Assembly (NCBI GenBank): GCA_023301795.1
Contig: JALZVU010000027.1
Location: forward strand, 1 to 64,000
Direction: 5' to 3'
Length of the DNA stretch: 64,000 nucleotides
From: Granulosicoccus sp.
GTDB taxonomy: Bacteria > Pseudomonadota > Gammaproteobacteria > Granulosicoccales > Granulosicoccaceae
A program made the position numbers and the translations under genes. Position 1 is the first letter of the stretch. Each line of letters starts with the position of its first letter. This document shows, in pieces, positions 17,147 to 22,427 of the stretch. The notes under the pieces were generated by a model. That model searched no databases. It was not told the origin of the DNA and worked only from the letters and a program-made list of their open reading frames with translations.

Positions 17147-18808
17147 ATGACACCTGCAATTGCCTTTCTTTTGGCGATGACCTTCCTTATTTCCATCGGT
17201 GGGATTTTCCTGATGGTTTGGGGCCTTGCAAACGATCAGTGGGGCGATGGAGTAGAGGCTTCCAAAGTTATTTTTGCCAAGGGTGAGCTTGGGCAAAAAG
17301 AAGATCCGGCCTTGACTGGAGCGCAGCGTACAGAGCTGCAAGAACAGCGCGAAAAGGGCGATTTGCATATTGATGAAGAGGAGCTTGCAGAGCGCAGGTT
17401 GCTTGATCGTTCAGGCAGGCGTCCTGTTATGTGGTGGTTATCTTCGTCCATTGCCTGGTTGCTGCTGGGTTCCGTATTCGGCGTTGTTGCCTCATTAAAA
17501 TTGCATTTGCCTGATTGGCTAATAGGCGATGCAGTCCTTACATTCGGTCGTATACGGCCGGCACATCTGAATGTTGTTGCCTATGGTTGGGCGTCCATGG
17601 CAGGTGTTGGCGTCGGTATCTGGTTGATGCCGCGCCTTTTCAAGACGCCTCTGGTGGGAGGAAACTTTGCCACAGTGGGCGCGGTACTCTGGAACATTGG
17701 CATGTTCAGCGGCACCGTTGGAGTGTTGGCTGGTTTCAGCGAAGGGTTGGAATGGCTTGAGTTTCCATGGCAGGCCGATGTATTTCTGGTCATTGGTGGT
17801 GCGCTGGCTGCGGTACCTCTTTTGATGACAGTGGTTCGGCGTCGCGTCCACCATTTATATGTAAGTGCCTGGTATTTGATCGGTGCACTGGTCTGGTTTC
17901 CGATGCTCTTGATTACTGCAAAGCTGCCGTTGTTCATCGGTACAGAGCAGGCCATCATGAATTGGTGGTTTGCTCATAACGTTCTTGGATTGTGGATGAC
18001 GCCGTTAGGTCTGGCAGCAGCTTATTATTTTATTGCGAAAATTACGGGCACACCCATCTACTCATACACGCTGTCTTTGATTGGCTTCTGGGCGTTGGCT
18101 TTGTTCTACAGCCAGGTTGGCGTGCATCATCTTATTGGTGGTCCAGTACCTACATGGCTAACCACGTTGTCCATTGTTACCAGTGTGATGATGATCATCC
18201 CGGTGGTTGCTGTGGCGATTAACCATCACATGACGGTCTTGCCCAAATGGCGGATGGTGTTGCATTCACCGACGCTGCGATTTGTTGTGGCGGGCGCCAT
18301 GATGTACACCTTTGCATCTGTGCAGGGTTCGATTGAAGCGCTACGCGACGTTAACCAGGTAACGCATTTCACGCATTACACGGTGGCGCATGCTCACATG
18401 GGTGTTTACGGGTTCTTCTCGTTTGTTCTTTTTGGTTCCATCTACTTTATCTTGCCAAGGCTAGTGGCTTGGGAATGGCCGCATATCTGGGCGATTGAAC
18501 TGCATTTCTGGTTGGTGTTTCTTGGCTTTGGCATCTATTTCTGGCCACTGACCGTGGGCGGATGGCTTCAAGGCACTGCCATGCTGGATGCGGCGCGTCC
18601 ATTTATGGATTCAGTGCTACTAACCAAGCCTTATTTGGAGGCACGTTCGGTCGGTGGCTCGTTGATGACCTTGGGGCATATCGTATTCGCCAGTCACTTT
18701 GTTCTGGTACTCATGCGTATGGGTCCTGCCAGTGAAGCGGCGCCCCAGTTGATGCGGGGTTTTGGCAAAAAGCGTGGTGATAATGTGGCATCGGAGGCAA
18801 ACTCATGA
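17147..18808 (+). CDS. ccoN: cbb3-type cytochrome c oxidase subunit I with CcoS-like N-terminal extension
   Basis: A 553-residue catalytic subunit that reduces O2 to water at a haem b3-CuB centre. The core from about residue 85 matches CcoN. A low-spin haem His lies in RPAHLNVVAYGW (near 140). Copper-ligand histidines lie in WWFAHNVLGLW (near 276) and GVHHLIGGPVPTW (near 326). The haem ligands of the late helix lie in VAHAHMGVYGF (near 415). Typical CcoN is about 475 residues. The extra N terminus holds one transmembrane helix (FLLAMTFLISIGGIFLMVWG), then NDQWGDGVEASKVIF and an acidic linker. That is the topology of the small assembly protein CcoS (helix, then a W/F-D-x-E-A-x-x-I-F-like stretch). 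Fusion with CcoS is inference. ATG at 17147; the stop overlaps ccoO (ATGA). Confidence 0.9.
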   Translation: MTPAIAFLLAMTFLISIGGIFLMVWGLANDQWGDGVEASKVIFAKGELGQKEDPALTGAQRTELQEQREKGDLHIDEEELAERRLLDRSGRRPVMWWLSSSIAWLLLGSVFGVVASLKLHLPDWLIGDAVLTFGRIRPAHLNVVAYGWASMAGVGVGIWLMPRLFKTPLVGGNFATVGAVLWNIGMFSGTVGVLAGFSEGLEWLEFPWQADVFLVIGGALAAVPLLMTVVRRRVHHLYVSAWYLIGALVWFPMLLITAKLPLFIGTEQAIMNWWFAHNVLGLWMTPLGLAAAYYFIAKITGTPIYSYTLSLIGFWALALFYSQVGVHHLIGGPVPTWLTTLSIVTSVMMIIPVVAVAINHHMTVLPKWRMVLHSPTLRFVVAGAMMYTFASVQGSIEALRDVNQVTHFTHYTVAHAHMGVYGFFSFVLFGSIYFILPRLVAWEWPHIWAIELHFWLVFLGFGIYFWPLTVGGWLQGTAMLDAARPFMDSVLLTKPYLEARSVGGSLMTLGHIVFASHFVLVLMRMGPASEAAPQLMRGFGKKRGDNVASEANS

Positions 18809-19482
18809 CTCGCGCACTCGGCATTATTGCGGGCACTGCCCTTATCTTGTTGTATGCAACCATGTTGTTGCTCATCATGCCGGCTATACAGCTTCGTACT
18901 GGAGAGAATCCACCGGCAGCGCTAGCGCCTTACACCGAATCTCAAGCACGAGGTCGTGAGCATTACATATCGCTGGGTTGTGTCTACTGTCATAGTCAGC
19001 AACCTCGCGACGCCGCGCTAGCGCCTGATGCGTTGCGTGGGTGGGGTCGTCCGTCGGTACCGGCGGATTACAGCTACGACACTGTGCACCTCATGGGCAC
19101 AATGCGTACGGGCCCTGATCTGTTCAATATCGGCGCACGCCAGCCCAGTGTTGACTGGCACTTAACGCATCTTTACGCGCCACGTTCTGTCTCGCCTGGC
19201 AGTAATATGCCGGGTTACCCGTTCTTGTTTGATGTGATTGATTTTGTGCCAGAAGGTGCTGTCGCGGTGGCCTTGCCACCTGAATATCGTGTGCGTGGCG
19301 GAACGGTGATTGCGACAAAAGAAGCGCTGGAGCTTGTTGACTATCTGATAGGTCTGGACCATACCTACCCGACTGATGATTTGCCAAAAGCTGTGGAAGA
19401 GGACGCTGATGAGGCGGACGATAGTCTGAGCTCACTCACGCTAGACCCGGCAGAATTGAATGGCACAGGAGCGCGGCCATGA
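18805..19482 (+). CDS. ccoO: cbb3 oxidase monohaem cytochrome c subunit CcoO
   Basis: A 225-residue membrane-anchored cytochrome c that passes electrons to CcoN. One N-terminal transmembrane helix (IIAGTALILLYATMLLLIM) is followed by the haem site CVYCHSQQPRD near residue 59. Next come the conserved CcoO segments RTGPDLFNIGARQPSVDWHL and SVSPGSNMPGYPFLF, the latter giving the axial Met. The C-terminal 30 residues are acidic. The start overlaps ccoN and the stop overlaps ccoP, each as ATGA, so the three subunits are translationally coupled. Confidence 0.93.
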   Translation: MTRALGIIAGTALILLYATMLLLIMPAIQLRTGENPPAALAPYTESQARGREHYISLGCVYCHSQQPRDAALAPDALRGWGRPSVPADYSYDTVHLMGTMRTGPDLFNIGARQPSVDWHLTHLYAPRSVSPGSNMPGYPFLFDVIDFVPEGAVAVALPPEYRVRGGTVIATKEALELVDYLIGLDHTYPTDDLPKAVEEDADEADDSLSSLTLDPAELNGTGARP

Positions 19483-20135
19483 GTAACGATGATCATGGTC
19501 GAGTACCGTCAGACGACAACGTAACTAGTGCTCCGGCTCCAGGCTCAGATCCCGTTGAAGGACGTGCTTACCGGCGTGAAGGCTTTGAGCCAGAAGAGCT
19601 GAAAAACCCATTGCCCCTTTGGTACACGTTGATGTCAGTGGGTCTTATTATCTGGGGTGCAAGTTATTTTTTCATGCAAGGTATTGTGCCTGCTGACGGT
19701 GGAGATTTGCGTACCGCGCTGCCTGCGCCGGGTAGCTTGCCGGTGGACGGCGCGACGGTGTACAACGCGAATTGTGTGGCTTGTCATCAAGCCACTGGGC
19801 AAGGACTGGCTGGTGCATTTCCTCCGTTGGATGGTTCTGAATGGGTGATGACTGACCCGCGCATTCCTGCTCAGATTCTGGTGCACGGGATGCAAGGGGA
19901 GATTGTTGTCATGGGTAATACCTATAATGGTGTTATGCCGGTGATGGCGCATCTGAGTGATCAGGAGCTGGCCGCCGTGCTTAATTACATCAGGAACAGC
20001 TGGTCCAATTCAGGTTCAGAGGTGGATGCTGACTACTTTGCCGCCATGCGTGAAGAGTTTGGTGAGCGAGGTCCGTGGGAAGGTGGGGCAGAGCTGATTT
20101 CTGAGCTGGGTGAGCCTGTGGTACCGGCAAACTAG
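19479..20135 (+). CDS. ccoP: Short CcoP-like cytochrome c subunit with a single haem site
   Basis: A 218-residue subunit in the CcoP position. A polar N terminus ends in FEPEELKNPLPLWYTLMSVG, a membrane helix resembling the CcoP anchor. A single class I cytochrome c domain follows, with CVACHQATGQG near residue 98 and an axial Met in YNGVMPVMAHLSDQELA. Standard CcoP proteins are about 300 residues with two CxxCH sites; only one is present here. The frame is intact and ends in VPAN, so this is a short form, not a frameshifted one. It should carry electrons from soluble cytochrome c to CcoO. Confidence 0.82.
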   Translation: MSNDDHGRVPSDDNVTSAPAPGSDPVEGRAYRREGFEPEELKNPLPLWYTLMSVGLIIWGASYFFMQGIVPADGGDLRTALPAPGSLPVDGATVYNANCVACHQATGQGLAGAFPPLDGSEWVMTDPRIPAQILVHGMQGEIVVMGNTYNGVMPVMAHLSDQELAAVLNYIRNSWSNSGSEVDADYFAAMREEFGERGPWEGGAELISELGEPVVPAN

Positions 20136-20150: not shown

Positions 20151-22427
20151 GTGTCATTCGCTGCGCAGGGCTCTGTCGATACTGCCGGACCATCATTGGC
20201 GCAGGTTGCACACATTGAAGAATGTGTGTTCGCCGTTGAAAACATGTTCTGTGGAGGCTGTGCTGCCACCGTTGAACGTGCGGTCAGGCGTCTGTCGGGT
20301 GTTACTGATGTGAACGTATCATTTTTGGGTGATACGGCCATCGTTCAGTACGAGCCTGAGATCATTGAGGATGCAGCTATTCGTCAAGCCATCGAGCGGC
20401 TTGGTTACGCCACACAGACGGTGGGTGAAGGTACTCAGTCATCGCAATCAAGCCACTTTGAACGACAGCTGCGCATGCGTCTGGGTGTGGCGGTCGGATT
20501 TGGTCTTTGGGTGATGATGGCCAGTATGGTGCGGCTGTTCATCGAACTGCCGTCCGCACAGTTTGCGTGGTCGTTGGCCGTGTTCTCTGGCGTCTTGTCT
20601 ATTCCTGTCCTAGCTTACTCTGCCACACCGTTTTTAAAGCTTGGTTGGCTTGGGCTGCGCGAACGCGTGCCCGGTATGGACTCCTTGATTTTCATCGCAA
20701 CCATTGCTGCGGTGTCGGGCTCATTGATCACCTTGTACAACGGCGGCTCGCACGTCTGGTTTGATGTTCCTGTGATGCTGGTGACGTTTCAGTTGCTAGC
20801 GCGATTGGCAGATTTCGGTGCGCATCGTAAAGCGTCCAGTGCCGTCAGAGCGTTGTTGGATTTATCGCCTGTGCAGGCACGCCGTGTGGCGCATGCTCCC
20901 ACTTCAGAGCAAACTCAAACTGACGAGCACGAGCACGAACTTGTCCCGTTGGTGCAGCTTTGCGAAGGTGATGTCATACAAAGCCATGCCGGTGAACGTC
21001 TTTGCATGGATGGTGTTATCACCGAAGGGGGTGCGTTTATCGACACCGCGCTGCTTAACGGAGAATCAGTTCCTGAATACCGTCAAGTGGGTGACGAGGT
21101 TCATGCCGGCACGTTGAATCTGGACGGTGTTGTCAATATACGTATCAGCACAACGATGGGTAGCCGTCGTATGGATGTGCTGGCAAGTTCTGTTGGTCGC
21201 TTATTGAATAAAAAAAGCAATCTGATGAAGCTTGCTGATCAGATTGCCTTCTGGTTAGTGCCTTTGCTCATCGTTGTATCAAGTCTTGTCATGTTGGTGC
21301 TGATGTTTGGAGGGCTATCGTTTTCTGTGGCGTTGGAACGTGCATTGGCTGTTCTAGTTGTCAGTTGCCCCTGTGCCTTGTCGCTTGCTGTGCCACTGGT
21401 GGTATCCGTGACGGCCACAACCTCTGCCAAAGAAGGCATTTTGTTTCGCGATGCGAGCGTGCTGGAAAAAGCGCGGCAAGTCGATGTTGTGCTTATTGAC
21501 AAGACTGGCACGTTGACTGTTGGCAACCCGGGTGTGGTTAAGGTGCAAAGCACTGACGGCTATACGCAGGAGGACGTGGTTGCCATTGCTGCCAGAGCAG
21601 GGCGTGTATCCAAACATCCGCTGATGTCAGCCATTGTTGCAAAAGCTGCGATTGATAACGAAGCTGCGCTAGCTGAACCTGATACACCCACAGAGCTTCG
21701 CGAATATGCCGGTCGAGGTGTTGAGTCTGTGACGACGGACGGTCGCACAGTGCTTGCAGGTTCGCGTCAATGGTTGGCGTCGCGTGAAGTGTCAGTTATC
21801 GGCGTTCTGGATGCCTCGGACGAGCAGATACAAAGCGCCAGTGAAGTCTGCGTGGCCATTGACGGTCAGTGGGTCGGCAACATCTATCTTGTCGATGCGC
21901 TAAGACCGGACGCAGCGCAGCTTATCAAGACACTTTCTGAACATGGCATGCAGATTACGCTGGTCAGTGGTGATCGACCCGATAGTGTCCAGGCGGTAGC
22001 GTCAACATTGGGTATAGAGTGGCGAGCAAGCTTTTCGCCCGAAGACAAGGCTGCGATGGTCGAGCAACTCAGTGAGCAAGGTCGGGTTGTCGCCTTTGTC
22101 GGTGACGGCTTGAATGACGGCCCGGCGCTGGCTGCCGCGTCGGTGGGTATTGCTACCGGCAAGGCCAGTGACTTGGCCAGAAGTGCTGCGGCAATGGCGG
22201 TACTCGATGGTGGCCTGGACCGGATAGTCTGTGCGCTGAGGCTCTCATCACGTGCATCATCTGTACTGCGCAGCAATCTTATTTGGGCCTTGTTGTATAA
22301 CAGCCTATTGTTGCCTGCGGCAGTACTCGGGTATGTCCACCCTGTGATGGCTGTGGTGGCCATGGGGCTGAGCACGCTGTCTGTTTCCCTGAATTCGCTG
22401 CGTGCAGGTGGCTCGGTGCGGTTGTAA
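20151..22427 (+). CDS. ccoI: Copper-type P1B ATPase of the cbb3 operon (CcoI/FixI-like)
   Basis: A 758-residue heavy-metal P-type ATPase, presumably exporting copper for cbb3 assembly. It starts with GTG at 20151, with AGGAGG overlapping the ccoP stop 11 bases upstream. The cytoplasmic metal-binding domain has MFCGGCAATVE near residue 33. The membrane metal site is SCPCALSLAVPL near 406, the phosphorylation loop IDKTGTLTVGN near 450, the SKHPL motif near 488, and VGDGLNDGPALAAA follows. The actuator loop, usually TGES, reads LNGESVPEYRQ. CcoI/FixI is favoured over CopA by operon position; a detoxification role cannot be excluded. No ccoS gene follows. Confidence 0.9.
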   Translation: MSFAAQGSVDTAGPSLAQVAHIEECVFAVENMFCGGCAATVERAVRRLSGVTDVNVSFLGDTAIVQYEPEIIEDAAIRQAIERLGYATQTVGEGTQSSQSSHFERQLRMRLGVAVGFGLWVMMASMVRLFIELPSAQFAWSLAVFSGVLSIPVLAYSATPFLKLGWLGLRERVPGMDSLIFIATIAAVSGSLITLYNGGSHVWFDVPVMLVTFQLLARLADFGAHRKASSAVRALLDLSPVQARRVAHAPTSEQTQTDEHEHELVPLVQLCEGDVIQSHAGERLCMDGVITEGGAFIDTALLNGESVPEYRQVGDEVHAGTLNLDGVVNIRISTTMGSRRMDVLASSVGRLLNKKSNLMKLADQIAFWLVPLLIVVSSLVMLVLMFGGLSFSVALERALAVLVVSCPCALSLAVPLVVSVTATTSAKEGILFRDASVLEKARQVDVVLIDKTGTLTVGNPGVVKVQSTDGYTQEDVVAIAARAGRVSKHPLMSAIVAKAAIDNEAALAEPDTPTELREYAGRGVESVTTDGRTVLAGSRQWLASREVSVIGVLDASDEQIQSASEVCVAIDGQWVGNIYLVDALRPDAAQLIKTLSEHGMQITLVSGDRPDSVQAVASTLGIEWRASFSPEDKAAMVEQLSEQGRVVAFVGDGLNDGPALAAASVGIATGKASDLARSAAAMAVLDGGLDRIVCALRLSSRASSVLRSNLIWALLYNSLLLPAAVLGYVHPVMAVVAMGLSTLSVSLNSLRAGGSVRL

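Follow-up and report, generated by a model that had tools for sequence, protein, structure and literature searches.

The window, by which we mean the whole stretch of 64,000 nucleotides of Granulosicoccus DNA that was analysed, carries an oxidase operon that opens with a ccoN-like gene and continues with genes for two cytochrome c-type subunits and a copper ATPase. The coordinates of these genes, and of the parts of the first one, are collected in Table 1.

Table 1. Features of the oxidase operon (positions in the window)
Feature	Position	Strand	Description
ccoN-like gene	17147..18808	+	553 aa; CcoS-like domain, linker and C-family haem-copper oxidase subunit I
CcoS/FixS-homologous domain	17147..17308	+	Residues 1-54; membrane helix (3-28), then Q-aromatic...A...IF...E tail; family-level homology plus sequence constraint
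Variable charged linker	17309..17410	+	Residues 55-88; ends at conserved R-x3-D-x-S junction
CcoN catalytic core	17411..18805	+	H140, H277, H327, H328, H415, H417 and Y321 conserved with canonical CcoN
ccoO-like mono-haem subunit	18805..19482	+	One CxxCH; start overlaps ccoN stop; Pfam FixO 101.8 bits (cut-off 29.6)
Short ccoP-like subunit	19479..20135	+	218 aa, one CxxCH; FixP_N 27.0 and Cytochrom_C 54.4 bits; TIGR00782 46.4 of 179.95
Copper-type P1B ATPase, ccoI position	20151..22427	+	TIGR01525 457.9 and TIGR01511 404.6 bits, both above cut-off

The ccoN-like protein matches Pfam COX1 (PF00115) over residues 93-505 with 258.7 bits, for a cut-off of 34.8. The match to the ccoN equivalog TIGR00780 is weak (232.7 bits, below the cut-off of 583.15), and fused relatives of the protein score 241-283 bits. 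The nearest named relatives are Granulosicoccus MAGs, and two relatives of the same genus share the start of the open reading frame. The six histidines and the tyrosine of Table 1, which we take to play the same roles as in cbb3 oxidases (the histidines as metal ligands, Y321 as the TM7 cross-link tyrosine), are identical in 20 of 20 aligned canonical, split and fused sequences. The structure predicted for the fusion protein has a pLDDT of 84.7 and a pTM of 0.89. In fold comparison it aligned with chain D of 3mk7 over 439 residues (Z 41.7), from model residue 85 on, and since this residue pairs with residue 8 of the chain, the protein has about 77 additional N-terminal residues. The sequence-only reading had put the excess at about 80, and its description of the extension as one membrane helix, NDQWGDGVEASKVIF and a linker also agrees with the protein: NDQWGDGVEASKVIF is exactly residues 29-43, directly after the helix predicted at 3-28, and the charged linker comes next. 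Segment 41-60 of the model has a pLDDT near 90; the fold comparison itself is silent on the extension, at least a fifth of the rows of a second comparison spanning only residues 85-537.

Canonical CcoP has two CxxCH motifs, and the window CcoP-like protein has a single one, so that the operon differs from a canonical cbb3 operon with its di-haem CcoP. It had also been noticed that no ccoS lies behind the gene in the ccoI position; this was correct, the gene 3' of the P1B ATPase being that of a family-5 solute-binding protein, an unrelated transporter gene. No ccoG, ccoH, ccoQ or ccoS was found beside the operon.

Taken alone, the window extension gave no significant match in Pfam and NCBIfam. 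Its score with Pfam FixS (PF03597) was 10.6 bits (11.1 in the genome scan), under the gathering cut-off of 23.1. DUF7684 scored above FixS there (15 bits, E 0.02), and was rejected as the identity of the extension because it matches only one of 90 family members. The family was sampled by protein and profile searches, which gave 92 loci including the window, and by four loci from a phylum sample, 96 in all. The extension is fused to ccoN in 93 of them and is a stand-alone gene adjoining ccoN in the other three; none has the arrangement usual for CcoS/FixS, a stand-alone gene next to ccoI. A scan of 90 extensions gave FixS matches at E<=0.1 in 70 (best 2.7e-8); the next most frequent family had six. 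Several members pass the FixS cut-off within the CcoN frame, namely G407 (33.5 bits), G204 (27.3 bits) and Cupriavidus metallidurans (23.4 bits), as do further frames of 516-800 aa from Marinobacter, Halomonas and Alcaligenaceae; many members stay below. The FixS match proposed for the extension is thus lacking in the window copy and present in some of its relatives.

Two further comparisons were made with stand-alone CcoS. Profile-profile alignment of the family's extensions with 25 stand-alone CcoS proteins gave a probability of 93.9 and a score of 44.5, and the best score among 31 control windows placed along the CcoN core was 10.7. An HMM built from stand-alone CcoS was run on the 20,507 ORFs of 78 loci; all 36 matches at E<=1 were fused CcoN frames, 35 of them the CcoN frames of as many loci and the last a second fused CcoN in L086. 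As this HMM is modestly sensitive (35 of 78 CcoN frames at E<=1, best E 0.0021), the claim of homology rests on the agreement between methods. Judged from these profiles together, homology of the extension to CcoS is well supported at the level of the family, and the CcoS-shaped extension of the sequence-only reading is borne out at that level, by the FixS matches, the profile score and the split-form relatives described below. The two fused CcoN genes of L086 (7929-9614 and 16150-17634), which belongs to Marinobacter aromaticivorans, differ from each other and lie about 8 kb apart. Additional fused CcoN copies were seen in Alcaligenes genomes in the genome scan, and the fused CcoN of a MAG, L145 (G423:C3), has an in-frame TGA, which reflects either a sequencing error or a broken gene.

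In three relatives (G218, G073 and G803) CcoN lacks the extension, and immediately upstream stands a small independent ORF that shows the pattern of CcoS; that of G803 contains SGQFDHVDAMADSIFEADE. In all three the end of the small ORF overlaps the ccoN start, the overlap being ATGA in G218 and G073. FixS scores were 28.2 bits for the G218 ORF and 22.4 bits for that of G073, and the stand-alone-CcoS HMM matched the three peptides at 5.9e-10 to 1.7e-7. At this one position, then, the CcoS domain occurs in some relatives as a gene of its own and in others fused to CcoN. In a quick tree the 47 fused rows formed one clade with the three split rows as sister. In a mixture-model tree of 49 rows, computed without the long-branch row L009 and without 10 fused rows, the fused rows formed one clade in only 31% of bootstraps, and an AU test did not reject such a clade (p 0.32). 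A single origin is thus compatible with the trees, not demonstrated, and both fusion of neighbouring genes and later fission are possible. The long branch left out, L009 (G001:C462), is a strongly diverged C-family subunit I that shares about 35% identity with the window protein and stands apart from both groups. In conclusion, a divergent group of C-family oxidases of Pseudomonadota and Gemmatimonadota shares the CcoS-CcoN fusion.

Constraint on the extension was estimated from the window gene and its two same-genus relatives. Synonymous sites are saturated, so the proportion of non-synonymous differences was used in place of dN/dS; it was 0.059 in residues 1-55, 0.087-0.089 in the catalytic core and 0.196-0.242 in the linker. 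By this sequence measure the CcoS-like part is evolving more slowly than the catalytic core. Over 90 sequences, mean pairwise identity was 0.51 in the helix, 0.475 in the tail, 0.224 in the linker (55-78) and 0.49 in the junction (79-90). Residues I42, F43, E47, G49 and P54 are nearly invariant in the 90 extensions; D34 is kept in 26 of them, and at the glutamine position of the CcoS motif 30 have Q and 44 have L. The mean number of K and R residues is 0.0 before the helix and 2.07 after it, which suggests an N-outside, C-inside orientation; the chain needs this orientation if it is to run into CcoN helix 1 from the cytoplasmic side. Across the family the extension is 62 to 100 residues long, and the shortest ones force the CcoS tail into a position near CcoN helix 1.

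An intact ccoS elsewhere in the genome had been considered an argument against the fusion. Such a gene was found: it encodes 60 aa (69.2 bits) on the minus strand of contig C153 (L026 9619-9801), shares 4 bases with the end of a canonical ccoI, and has a di-haem cytochrome gene in its cluster. The canonical ccoN of the same genome lies on contig C282 (614.5 bits). The C153 gene is part of a maturation cluster of the canonical cbb3 kind, and its occurrence across genomes follows that of canonical ccoN; its presence therefore does not refute the fusion in the window operon. The distribution was compiled by hand from genome-scan outputs for 58 genomes with a fused or split oxidase, comprising the window's own genome, seven more of its class and the genomes of 50 of the 78 named loci. 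Stand-alone CcoS was found in 53 of the 54 genomes with a canonical (or fragmentary canonical) CcoN, the exception being a Methylotenera MAG, and in none of the four genomes without canonical ccoN: a Granulosicoccus MAG (G024), a Methylophilaceae MAG (G421), Aquisalimonas lutea (G426) and Paralcaligenes ureilyticus (G440). Two of these four are MAGs and all four may be drafts; as genes can be absent from draft assemblies, these zeros are suggestive and not proof. There appears to be a division of labour, with stand-alone ccoS serving the canonical oxidase and the fused domain serving its divergent counterpart.

Passages of PMC8475189 propose a copper route to CcoN in which the ATPase CcoI acts first and the SCO-type chaperone SenC follows. 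Of 78 loci of the fused family, 53 have an SCO gene directly behind ccoP or a little further on, 23 have a P1B ATPase gene there and none has both; neither was found in the remaining two, one of which ends early. SCO and P1B ATPase, two successive steps of one copper route, are thus seen to swap within one operon (loci L032-L147). The fused CcoS is kept whichever copper gene is present, which would fit an action on CcoN itself rather than a partnership with one copper donor. On Paraburkholderia plasmids (L032 8001-14866; L037 7968-14830), genes annotated as cytochrome c and molybdopterin oxidoreductase come after the fused oxidase operon; they may encode a sulfite dehydrogenase that feeds the fused oxidase.

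The requirement of CcoS for an active cbb3 oxidase has been known for decades, according to passages of PMC7558416 and PMC8267372. The latter describes, in the part cited here, that Rhodobacter capsulatus without CcoS assembles an inactive oxidase that lacks haem b, haem b3 and CuB, and that Campylobacter jejuni without CcoS loses activity, which copper partly restores. The window gene encodes a true CcoS-CcoN fusion, in which a CcoS domain is joined in frame before a divergent C-family (cbb3-like) subunit I. We consider it probable that this domain acts in cis; most likely, it would supply the CcoS function during cofactor insertion. The CcoS helix would probably enter the membrane with its N-terminus outside, leaving the conserved tail and the linker in the cytoplasm, a placement that would match the cytoplasmic start of the first CcoN helix. 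The tethered domain would then stay beside CcoN during biogenesis and take over, in cis, the task that separate CcoS performs in trans. It may let the b-type haem and CuB be inserted, or hold the site open or stable until they are, with copper presumably supplied by the operon's own copper gene, the P1B ATPase here and an SCO chaperone in most relatives.

A domain of CcoS descent might now be only a structural subunit helix, the oxidase being matured by other factors. The partly relaxed CcoS signature, with its Q in 30 of 90 extensions, would agree with such a loss of function, and so would the availability of stand-alone CcoS in 53 of the 58 genomes; we nevertheless regard this explanation as unlikely, as the CcoS tail is conserved besides the helix (see its identity relative to the linker) and the oxidase is kept in genomes without stand-alone CcoS. 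Less likely still is that the separate canonical CcoS also matures the fused oxidase, so that the fused domain is redundant. The window's genome (G000) and most relatives do hold both forms, but the domain is more constrained than the core, and the four genomes named above, with the reservation made there, hold the fused oxidase only. That the extension is an ordinary extra CcoN membrane helix, as in R. capsulatus, with a likeness to CcoS due to chance between single helices, is very improbable: extra N-terminal CcoN helices are indeed known (passages of PMC7876108), the canonical CcoN of the window's genome has an N-terminal extension of about 70 residues and the window extension by itself has no significant FixS match, but the canonical CcoN extensions of the window's family compare with CcoS at a probability of 0.30 and a score of 7.9, far from the values of the fused family, some members of that family pass the FixS cut-off, and the split form, a separate gene at the same place in three relatives, strongly disfavours chance.

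On the reading of a CcoS-CcoN fusion that acts in cis, an assembly factor may have become a permanent part of its client across an oxidase clade, and CcoS could then be a protein that pairs one-to-one with CcoN and acts next to its first helix at the cytoplasmic face, and not a recycled carrier of copper or haem. In the shortest fusions, which have 62 residues before the core, the only docking site within reach is one near the first CcoN helix; we propose this wider view tentatively, at somewhat short of even chances. A natural fusion fixes the client of CcoS (CcoN) and the stoichiometry (one to one), and probably the membrane side too. When solved structures were searched by sequence, using the extension profile and the CcoS of this genome as queries, only chance matches came up and no structure with a CcoS match was found. 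The fusion may keep CcoS on the enzyme through purification, in which case one cryo-EM structure could show the CcoS site; the fused oxidase thus offers a direct route to learning what CcoS does. For annotation, it warns that a genome can hold a cbb3-like oxidase without a separate ccoS gene.

Each part of the fusion protein is already known. The joining of CcoS to its client CcoN was not found described in the open-licence PMC literature, and domain databases may already list the architecture automatically. Compared with cbb3 CcoN (TIGR00780; 3mk7, 8smr), the window protein has the same fold, six metal-ligand histidines and TM7 tyrosine, but it is 25-28% identical to solved CcoN proteins, carries a CcoS domain in front and has a mono-haem CcoP as partner. 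Like CcoS/FixS, needed as a stand-alone protein elsewhere for the CcoN cofactors, the domain has one N-terminal membrane helix without preceding positive charges, followed by W.L....Q[FYW]....A..I[LF]...[DE]. Unlike CcoS/FixS, it is fused to its client by a linker of about 10-45 residues instead of being encoded downstream of ccoI, and it ends in E-x-G-x-x-EDP, whereas stand-alone CcoS ends in a run of D. The helix TMH0 of R. capsulatus CcoN is likewise one extra helix ahead of CcoN helix 1, but the canonical CcoN extensions compared, from the window's family, do not match CcoS. The canonical CcoN proteins of L024, L011, L016 and L020, from that family, have their own N-terminal membrane extension of about 70 residues, with a profile unrelated to CcoS. 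Finally, in fused cbb3 subunits I/II (NF011053, PRK14485) a gene of the cbb3 operon is also fused to ccoN, and NF011053 matches the CcoN part only of the window protein (231.2 of 1080 bits); there CcoN is joined to the structural subunit CcoO, and here to an assembly factor.
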